Below are positions 32,864 to 37,530 of a DNA stretch of 53,620 nt, one piece after another. The translations under genes and the position numbers were made by a program. Position 1 is the stretch's first letter, and each line of letters begins with the position of its first letter. This stretch comes from Geobacteraceae bacterium (GTDB lineage Bacteria; Desulfobacterota; Desulfuromonadia; Geobacterales; Geobacteraceae). The DNA is taken from contig JANXYN010000172.1 in NCBI GenBank assembly GCA_025356035.1, positions 1 to 53,620 of the forward strand, given 5' to 3'. The notes beneath the pieces are model-generated. The model was given only the letters and a program-made list of their open reading frames with translations, made no database searches and was not told where the DNA came from.

Positions 32864-33334
32864 TTAGAGGGGACAGTGGGACCGCCCTCGCGTTGCCAGG
32901 TACTGTTGGTGGTACTCTTCGGCCCGCCAGAAGGTAACGGCCGGCGTGATTTCGGTGACGATGGGGCGGCTGTACCTGCCGGAGTGCTGCTCCTTCTCCA
33001 GAGAGGCGCGGGCGGCCCGTTCCTGGTCCTGAGTATGGTAGAAGATCACCGAGCGGTAGTTGCTGCCGATGTCCGGCCCCTGGCGGTTAAGCTGGGTGGG
33101 GTCGTGGCAGTTCCAGAAGTGGCCGAGCAGCTCTTCGTAACTTATTTGGGCCGGGTCGTAGGTCAGCTCCACCACCTCGGCGTGGCCGGTGGTGTGGGCA
33201 CAGACCTCTTCATAGGTGGGGTGGGGCTTGCTCCCCCCCATGTAACCGACCTGGGTGGCCACCACACCATGCAGCTGGCGGTATTCCTCTTCCACATGCC
33301 AGAAGCAGCCGGCGCCGAACGTCGCTTTGTTCAT
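32864..33334 (-). CDS. msrA: peptide-methionine (S)-S-oxide reductase
   Basis: MsrA repairs the S-sulfoxide of methionine. The 156-residue product from ATG 33334 starts [18 protein letters not shown], where the Cys in GCFW is catalytic; the usual following Gly is His here. [49 protein letters not shown] and the C-terminal YHQQYLA are family markers. AGGAGGAGG before the ATG selects this start over the longer frame to 33409. It appears cytoplasmic, with no signal peptide. Confidence 0.95.
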
Positions 33335-33466
33335 GGTCCCCTCCTCCTTGGCTGCCGGCAGGACGCTCCGGCCTGGCCAGCCCACATCTTGTTGCCCCTT
33401 CAGGAACACGCCACATCCAAGCCTGCCGTTCCATCATACAAAATCCTACCAAGATTTTCCAGCCAA

Positions 33467-35587: not shown

Positions 35588-36211
35588 CTAGTCGGAAAAG
35601 CCGCCTGCATAGTCGATGACGCAAACGGTTCGGAAGCCGGGGTGAGGTCCGCAGCTAGCCCCGGCCGTAGCGAACGCCGATTTATAGATGTTGCTCCGAT
35701 GGCCACGATTTTTCACACCGTCGTCGATGATTAGCTGCATCACCACCAGCCGCGCCTGATCTGGGCCGTAGGCGATGTTTTCGCCGATGGTAGTCTGCCA
35801 ATGGCCATGGCGCTCGATGCGGGTTTTCATATCGCCGCTTTTCTTTCCCACATGGCCGGTGGCGCCATTCTCCCCTTGTTCCTGTGCCAAATCTGCGGCC
35901 GCAAGGGCAAGACCTTCAGACCAGGTGAGTTGCGGAACCGGCTTCTGTTTTTCGAGAAAGTGGAGCGCCTCGTCCACAGCCGGCAGCCCTTCCTGGGTGA
36001 TGATGTGGGTATTTTCTGCGCCGGGGAGCGTATAGTAATTGTCGCGATAACGGGCACGAAATGCGCGGATAAAGCCGGCATAAGCCTGGGGGTTGGTGCG
36101 GGCGAGACTCATTTCCTGCACAATCCCCTCTTCAAGGGACGAGCCGGCCCGGGCGTTGACGGCGGTCAACAATAAGGCGAAAAGACAAGCGGAACGCAAA
36201 ATATGGGGCAT
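35588..36211 (-). CDS. secreted CAP/SCP-domain protein
   Basis: A 207-residue protein with signal peptide MPHILRSACLFALLLTAVNARA. The CAP (SCP/PR-1) domain shows NPQAYAGFIRA, LTWSEGLALAAADLAQEQGENGATGHVG, HGHWQTTIGENIAYG and GHRSNIYKSAFATAGASCG. The conserved His and Glu residues (GHVG, IGENI, GHRSN) line the usual cleft. Bacterial CAP proteins are extracytoplasmic and mostly of unknown role. AAAGGAAG precedes the ATG. It is transcribed away from the glutaredoxin-like gene. Confidence 0.88.
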   Translation of the reverse strand: MPHILRSACLFALLLTAVNARAGSSLEEGIVQEMSLARTNPQAYAGFIRAFRARYRDNYYTLPGAENTHIITQEGLPAVDEALHFLEKQKPVPQLTWSEGLALAAADLAQEQGENGATGHVGKKSGDMKTRIERHGHWQTTIGENIAYGPDQARLVVMQLIIDDGVKNRGHRSNIYKSAFATAGASCGPHPGFRTVCVIDYAGGFSD

Positions 36212-36517
36212 CTATTTCTTCCTTTGAAGAGAAAATTTGTGGCGCGCACTCAATGCCAGCCGCCTGCCGTGCTTGCCACCCGGCTAAAGGGGCGGCATAA
36301 CTATAGCAGTTTTTAGCAGGAGGTGCATCGGTTTTCAGAACTTATCCGTAGATTGCAGACAGACGGCAATGCGGGGACTTTCATCGCGGCTCGGCTGGTT
36401 GAATGGTCGAAGAAAATCGGTTGTGGCACGCCCTGGAATCGGGTAAGATAACCATCGTAGCTCAGCACTGAATTGCCGAATAGCCTGCAGTGGTCGCACT
36501 GCGGAAAAGGATCAGCG
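36212..36517. other. 306-base divergent intergenic region, nothing recognised
   Basis: This region lies between the divergent CAP gene and the Sec-glutaredoxin gene, and must hold both promoters. I see no conserved motif, riboswitch or coding frame. A short minus-strand ORF across it lacks any family feature and a ribosome site. Confidence 0.5.
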
Positions 36518-36886
36518 TTGAAACAGGCAAATATTCTCTTTCCTTCCCTCCTCATGCTTGCACTATGCCTTGGCATTGGGACAGCCATGGCCCGCCCACC
36601 TGCTTCTGGCTCTGTGGACATCGTCATCTACGTCGGCGCCGGATGACCATACTGCAGCCGAGTGGAAAGTTATTTCACCAAAAAAGGTATCCCCTATATC
36701 TGCCGTGACATCAGCCAGGACAAAGTGGCGCGCCGGGAGTGGCGCGAGCGCTTCGCTGGCGAGATCGTGCCGACAGTGGTCTTTAACGGAGGGAGGCGGG
36801 TCGTGGATGGCTTCGACATCCCCTCCATCGAACGGGCCCTCCGGGAACTGACCGCAGCTCCTCCCCGCGTATCCAAGACCAACTGA
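36518..36886 (+). CDS. exported glutaredoxin-like selenoprotein (UPYC motif, in-frame UGA)
   Basis: The frame reads through a TGA at 36644-36646 placed exactly where the first Cys of a glutaredoxin CPYC motif should be: IVIYVGAG-U-PYCSRVESYF. Start TTG 36518 has AAAAGG 7 bases upstream and gives 122 residues. Residues 1-24 (LFPSLLMLALCLGIGTAMA) form a signal peptide, Sec is residue 43 and Cys 46. The cis-Pro element VPTVVFNGG follows near 95. Just after TGA the RNA can fold CC-at-ACT, loop GCAGCCG, AGT-GG (36647-36665), as a bacterial SECIS-like hairpin with G opening the loop. An exported thiol/selenol redox protein is inferred. A nonsense mutation is the alternative. Confidence 0.82.
36647..36665 (+). 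promoter_or_regulatory. possible SECIS-like hairpin after the UGA
   Basis: Immediately after the TGA, CC (36647-36648) and ACT (36651-36653) pair with AGT (36661-36663) and GG (36664-36665). The two-base bulge is AT and the 7-base loop starts with G. Bacterial SECIS elements are short hairpins just downstream of UGA with a G at the loop start. The stem is short, so support is moderate. Confidence 0.45.
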
Positions 36887-37029: not shown

Positions 37030-37530
37030 ATGGCACTGGCAAAAAAAGGGGATAGAGTAAAAATCAACTTCACCGGCACCCTCGAAGACGGGACCATCTT
37101 CGAGTCGACCCTGGAGGATACGGATTGCGGCAGCGATGACTGTGGCAGCGACGATTGCGATAGCGATGACTGCGGTTGCGGCTGCGAAGCGGGGCCGATG
37201 GAACTCACCATCGGCGAGGAGGAGTTTTTCAGCCAGGTGGAGGAGGCGCTGATCGGCATGGCCCCCGGCGAGAAAAAGAAGGTGATCATCCCCGCCGAGG
37301 ACGCCTTCGGCGAGTACGACGAGGAGCAGATCTTCACCATCGGCCGGGATCAGGTCCCTGCCGGTGTCACCCCCGAGGTGGGGGAGGAATTCGAGCTCAC
37401 CGATGATGACGACGAAGTCATTGAGGTGACGGTGGTTGAGGTGACCGACACCGAGCTGGTCCTCGACGCCAATCACCCCCTGGCCGGAGAAGACCTCACG
37501 TATGAATTCGAGTTGGTGGAGATTCTCTAG
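37030..37530 (+). CDS. SlyD-like FKBP peptidyl-prolyl isomerase with Cys/Asp-rich insertion
   Basis: A 166-residue FKBP-type cis-trans prolyl isomerase of the SlyD class. It starts MALAKKGDRVKINFTGTLEDGT at ATG 37030, with AAAAGGA upstream. The EEEFFSQVEEALIGMAPGEKK and AEDAFGEYDE segments flank the IF (insert-in-flap) domain, and DANHPLAGEDLTYEFELVEIL ends it. Residues 31-52 are an unusual insertion of four DDCGS-like units followed by GCGC, with six cysteines and many Asp. Ordinary SlyD carries its metal-binding cysteines in a C-terminal tail, which is absent here. It lies 143 bases downstream of the Sec-glutaredoxin. Confidence 0.9.
   Translation: MALAKKGDRVKINFTGTLEDGTIFESTLEDTDCGSDDCGSDDCDSDDCGCGCEAGPMELTIGEEEFFSQVEEALIGMAPGEKKKVIIPAEDAFGEYDEEQIFTIGRDQVPAGVTPEVGEEFELTDDDDEVIEVTVVEVTDTELVLDANHPLAGEDLTYEFELVEIL
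37120..37182 (+). repeat. 15-base tandem repeats coding DDCGS units
   Basis: Four imperfect 15-base units (37120-37134, 37135-37149, 37150-37164, 37165-37179) encode TDCGS, DDCGS, DDCDS and DDCGC inside the SlyD-like gene, followed by a GGCTGC pair. Wobble-position differences show they are not freshly duplicated. Confidence 0.85.

Follow-up and report, generated by a model that had tools for sequence, protein, structure and literature searches.

A probable selenocysteine-containing glutaredoxin, predicted to be exported, in a Geobacteraceae genome and its relatives in the order

The window is the whole stretch of DNA that was analyzed, 53,620 nt of a Geobacteraceae bacterium genome (contig JANXYN010000172.1). 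On its forward strand, positions 36518–36886 are open in one frame throughout, save for a single TGA at codon 43. The features of the locus are as follows:

36518–36886, forward strand: putative Sec glutaredoxin gene with a TTG start, Sec codon TGA at 36644–36646 and stop TGA at 36884–36886; 122 aa (from the translation with TGA as U, the Pfam Glutaredoxin match at 3.6e-13 and 23 orthologues)
36504–36510, forward strand: AAAAGGA, resembling a ribosome-binding site, ending 7 nt 5′ of the TTG start (from the sequence)
36518–36592, forward strand: signal-peptide-like N-terminus, MKQANILFPSLLMLALCLGIGTAMA, with type-I-like cleavage after AMA (judged by eye; model pLDDT ~50; N-terminus hydrophobic in 24/24 orthologues)
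36644–36646, forward strand: in-frame TGA, read as selenocysteine 43, the first residue of UPYC (TGA here in 24/24 orthologues)
36653–36655, forward strand: TGC, the resolving Cys46 of UPYC (invariant in 24/24)
36661–36679, forward strand: SECIS-like hairpin with stem 36662–36667/36673–36678 and AGUUA loop 36668–36672 (from pairing, compensation and codon identity)
36767–36787, forward strand: IVPTVVF, the cis-Pro motif of the glutaredoxin/thioredoxin fold (from the sequence and translation)

Translated with TGA as U, the frame encodes LKQANILFPSLLMLALCLGIGTAMARPPASGSVDIVIYVGAGUPYCSRVESYFTKKGIPYICRDISQDKVARREWRERFAGEIVPTVVFNGGRRVVDGFDIPSIERALRELTAAPPRVSKTN, residue 1 being Met. It matches Pfam Glutaredoxin (PF00462) at 49.9 bits against a gathering threshold of 22.9 (E = 3.6e-13). 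The ordinary open reading frame in the ORF list, GTG 36662 to 36886, gives 74 aa and loses strand beta-1 and the active site. An earlier note on this DNA had placed TGA 36644 at the first Cys of a CPYC motif, with a signal peptide and ribosome site ahead of TTG 36518 and a glutaredoxin fold with a cis-Pro running on to a proper stop, and had warned that gene calling from GTG 36662 would drop the active site. Each point holds at the locus: the signal-like segment is followed by RPP, and the 74-aa frame carries no UPYC. A promoter and terminator scan found none.

Six-frame searches covered 48 genomes of the family, and the wider set comprised 141 genomes of the order. The family yielded 12 orthologues at 54–64% identity, each with one in-frame TGA (one locus is also listed with its own terminal TAA). 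The order added 11, giving 24 sequences including the window copy and thus 23 other genomes, several of them complete or single-contig. Relatives named in a contig pattern scan were Geobacter sp. AOG1, Geobacter sp. H2geo, and Geomonas edaphica, oryzae, diazotrophica, propionica, and azotofigens. The codon is TGA in 24/24 and TAA, TAG, TGC, or TGT in 0/24, within the motif G-U-[PSTGL]-[YH]-C. The beta-strand IxIYVGSG just before the UGA is conserved among the orthologues. The ratio pN/pS is 0.19–0.41 3′ of the UGA; the 5′ stretch, being short and variable, does not allow a useful test.

Cys/Sec exchange among homologues, which the earlier note had suggested looking for, was not seen. The subfamily is Sec-only in every genome searched, and searches at class level (277 genomes) and phylum level (395 genomes) found no Cys version at E ≤ 1e-20. 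None of about 70 other Pfam Glutaredoxin matches in the 48 family genomes has an internal TGA, and a TGA-bearing glutaredoxin domain occurs only in the Sec orthologue group. Matches ranking below the orthologues are mostly 25–38% identical and lack the active-site TGA; they belong to a separate group of exported CPHC glutaredoxin-like proteins. A tree groups the 24 Sec proteins in a single clade, distinct from 17 Cys paralogues (support 100/98). One deviant exported glutaredoxin-like protein, L033 (G029:C1:513924-514232), has CKSC in place of CPHC and sits on a long branch.

The 24 sequences were aligned gap-free from the UGA. A hairpin begins about 15 nt past it (columns 18–24/30–36), with an AGUUA-type loop common to all 24 and its apical-loop G at 36669, 23 nt past the UGA. 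Across the set, 99.4% of hairpin cells are paired. Pair 20-34 is U-A in 17 sequences and C-G in 7, a change that needs GTG→GCG (Val→Ala) and ACC→GCC (Thr→Ala) jointly. At pair 24-30, also compensatory, 23 sequences have A-U and one has G-C; pair 22-32 is G-U or A-U. These two compensated pairs, against none in slid controls, represent few independent events because related sequences share the main change. The covariation score was reached by 0/500 shuffles; measures counting pairs or types were less striking (22/500 and 500/500). Among pairs encoding the same residue, codon identity is 0.98 in codons +5 to +11 versus a mean of 0.60 elsewhere (Mann-Whitney p ~1e-5), with Glu always GAA, Ser AGT, Phe TTC, and Thr ACC.

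The window hairpin is the weakest of the set at −3.6 kcal/mol, and its outermost pair, 36661-36679, is A-C where all relatives have G-C. Its folding energy is not significant by itself, so the comparative test was used. No Rfam SECIS model matched the Sec glutaredoxin, but the genome's own selD, which also encodes Sec, goes unmatched too, so the Rfam test is blind here. Like the other checks from the earlier note that were run, the SECIS check favored its reading: a hairpin lies at SECIS distance with covariation and synonymous-codon constraint. The covariation and codon constraint are direct comparative evidence for a putative bacterial SECIS element.

The source genome (3.40 Mb, 227 contigs, 99.8% complete) encodes the full selenocysteine pathway that the earlier note had asked for. 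tRNA-Sec (selC) scores 76.6 bits (gathering 47), SelB 376 bits (cut-off 242), SelD 370 bits, and SelA 610 bits. The selD gene (L061, G000:C164:30095-31018) carries a single in-frame TGA, within KAAGUAAKLGP, and is itself a selenoprotein gene. SelB exceeds its cut-off in 24/24 orthologue-bearing genomes; this co-occurrence adds little because selB is common in the order (121/141 genomes). Some genomes of the order have two full-length SelB matches over cut-off: G037 (C38, C89), G006 (C3, C72), and G027 (C1, C19).

AlphaFold, given the 24-row alignment, predicts a glutaredoxin fold with block-mean pLDDT of 87–95 over residues 31–110 and ~50 in the signal region. In the model, Sec43 directly precedes helix 44–56, at the N-terminus of helix 1. 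Top Foldseek matches are BC3987 (3zit, TMt 0.91) and cGrx1 (7c10, 0.88). The latter (PDB 7c10/7c12) is the selenoprotein glutaredoxin of Alkaliphilus/Clostridium oremlandii. By eye, the N-terminus is hydrophobic in 24/24 orthologues; about 11–12 of the 24 have canonical-looking lipoboxes (LVGC, LPGC, LLGC, LLSC, and others), and type-I-like signal peptides are seen in the window copy (AMA|R) and in the g27 group (AEA|V). The protein is predicted to be exported, and about half of the orthologues look like lipoproteins while the window copy appears to have an ordinary signal peptide.

The locus is very probably (roughly 0.92) a genuine selenoprotein gene, in which UGA 36644 is read as Sec43 through SelB and the hairpin to give an exported UPYC protein of glutaredoxin fold. 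This reading draws on a TGA that is conserved, a full set of Sec genes, a SECIS-like hairpin with covariation, and a predicted fold with Sec at the start of helix 1. The hairpin, beginning ~15 nt past UGA 36644, would guide SelB in bringing Sec-tRNA(Sec), and the UGA would be translated as selenocysteine 43. The product would be exported by the Sec route and cut near AMA|RPP, leaving a mature glutaredoxin-fold protein of ~97 aa whose active site is U-P-Y-C. Its selenolate would attack disulfides (or selenenyl or oxidized thiols) of periplasmic partners, and a Sec43-Cys46 selenenylsulfide would form within the molecule. A periplasmic thiol reductant would reset it, a CcdA/TlpA-type conduit being favored over glutathione. 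In about half of the orthologues, the same domain is apparently membrane-tethered as a lipoprotein.

One alternative is a nonsense mutation or pseudogene, or a TGC or TGT that became TGA through an error in sequencing or assembly. The assembly behind the window has 227 contigs, and TGA is one base away from the Cys codons. However, the same codon is TGA in 24/24 genomes, single-contig ones included, the frame 3′ of it is open and under purifying selection, and the hairpin carries compensatory changes. The chance of this explanation is negligible; error, which the earlier note had named as a refuting case, and pseudogene are ruled out by the 23 independent orthologues. It is also very unlikely that the true product is the truncated protein from GTG 36662 and the upstream frame accidental. 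GTG 36662 is a usable start in an open frame, but its product would lack beta-1 and the active site, whereas 24 genomes retain the upstream frame, including a signal peptide or lipobox and the IxIYVGSG strand. The GTG sits in the stem and is GCG, which is no start codon, in 7 orthologues, and codons +5 to +11 show the synonymous-site constraint of an RNA hairpin. The truncated start was rejected on the upstream frame, the hairpin codons, and GCG in those 7. Near-cognate readthrough could instead insert Trp or Cys, as low-level UGA readthrough is general and an open frame by itself leaves the residue unspecified. Insertion of a residue other than Sec is nevertheless highly improbable: the position is the catalytic Cys of glutaredoxins, the genome has a full selA/B/C/D set, the covarying hairpin lies at SelB distance, and TGA is kept with no drift to TGC, TGT, or TGG.

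The selenoprotein reading may still concern a gene already listed elsewhere. The accession WP_010943784.1 is presumably the G. sulfurreducens Sec glutaredoxin; this link is assumed. Tables from 2006 record Sec glutaredoxins in G. sulfurreducens, Alkaliphilus, and Moorella (PMC1794560), and a 2026 review gives Grx UxxC as WP_010943784.1 in a table without organism names (PMC13188914). If that protein is orthologous to this subfamily, the gene and mechanism are the same; this is a real possibility, at somewhat worse than even odds. Against it, the contig pattern scan, with strict patterns, found 8 relatives, 0 of them labeled G. sulfurreducens, and two reviews, one of them PMC13188914, leave a lipoprotein or secreted glutaredoxin unmentioned. 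A search within a limited literature collection likewise turned up no Sec glutaredoxin described as exported or as a lipoprotein. Selenoproteins outside the cytoplasm have a precedent in Geobacter, where ExtKL, a c-type-cytochrome-like selenoprotein, has been proposed (PMC5877670). The plausibility that the earlier note saw in a Sec glutaredoxin of a Geobacter-type genome is borne out by the sel genes; Sec glutaredoxins as such were already known (PMC1794560). What is unusual, as that note had said of export, lies in the export, judged by eye, together with the Sec-only subfamily. The protein appears to be a Sec-only, exported variant of known Sec glutaredoxins, and the G. sulfurreducens protein could be the same gene.

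Like the UxxC Sec glutaredoxins (cGrx1 and the G. sulfurreducens entry), the window protein has a glutaredoxin fold, Sec for the first Cys, the resolving Cys, and a UGA with a downstream hairpin. cGrx1 is an 84-residue chain without a signal sequence, whereas the window protein is predicted to be exported, with roughly half of the orthologues resembling lipoproteins, and belongs to a Sec-only subfamily. BC3987 and NrdH-like redoxins (PDB 3zij, 3zit, 4hs1) are the closest folds, with TMt 0.91 for 3zit. These redoxins are small, cytosolic, Cys-containing, and not tied to glutathione. Exported CPHC glutaredoxin-like proteins of the GlrX_YruB type (NCBIfam TIGR02196) share the predicted export, the likeness to glutaredoxin, and the genomes, but they have Cys rather than Sec, a CPHC motif, and a separate clade (100/98). 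Uxx-star (seleno)proteins (NF041212, NF041114, NF041211) are small, glutaredoxin-like and named by NCBI; the window protein keeps the resolving Cys, whereas PMC13188914 lists Uxx-star family 1 as UxxT. On the window protein, all NCBIfam models stay below their cut-offs: NF041212 scores 40.0 bits (cut-off 66), with NF041114 and NF041211 lower still, TIGR02196 scores 55.0 (88.55), and Glutaredoxin 3 TIGR02181 scores 29.2 (90).

Ordinary gene calling halves a selenoprotein subfamily that no NCBIfam model names at cut-off, and published Geomonas-type genomes may miss or truncate it. The locus would take selenium-based glutaredoxin chemistry beyond the cytoplasm, in a bacterium whose genome gave no glutathione synthetase match, which raises the question of the reductant. 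It also offers a clean natural case in which keeping an RNA hairpin intact has entailed two amino-acid changes (V→A with T→A).

A search limited to GshB gave no match in the source genome. Glutaredoxins usually have a Lys three residues before the active site. The subfamily has Gly or Ala at that position, though it keeps a DGxD stretch similar to the GGxD site. The lack of a GshB match and of the Lys make glutathione an unlikely partner. The genome encodes CcdA, with a TlpA/ResA-like lipoprotein frame just upstream of ccdA, and this pair is a plausible electron source for the Sec glutaredoxin. A CcdA/TlpA-type conduit is likelier than glutathione because GshB was not found and the Lys at −3 is absent. 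The role inferred is periplasmic or membrane-tethered, GSH-independent thiol/disulfide exchange via a Sec-Cys selenenylsulfide. A more specific proposal, speculative and on balance unlikely, is a Sec-obligate, glutathione-independent glutaredoxin of the Geobacter order, periplasmic or membrane-tethered and fed by a CcdA-type route, that would serve the order's large c-type cytochrome and metal-reduction machinery. It might, for example, keep CXXCH haem-binding thiols reduced or handle periplasmic selenite or oxidized thiols.

No operon or partner gene is conserved across the orthologue lineages. Neighbors are lineage-specific and give no clue to function. By names read from sequence, they are a histidine kinase/response regulator and a transporter in Geomonas, radical-SAM genes in g6, and radical-SAM (HpnH-like) and TatD genes in g27. 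In the window, they encode a CAP-domain protein and an FKBP. A Cys-type MsrA (Pfam PMSR, 1.7e-63) at 32864–33409 lies ~3 kb upstream on the other strand and is not adjacent to the Sec glutaredoxin. The A. oremlandii Sec glutaredoxin is said to be the reductant of a Sec-MsrA. A secreted CAP-domain (SCP) protein at 35588–36211 is divergent from the Sec glutaredoxin. An FKBP-type isomerase at 37030–37530 has an unusual Asp/Cys-rich insert (DCGSDDCGSDDCDSDDCGCGCE), like the metal-binding tail of SlyD placed internally.
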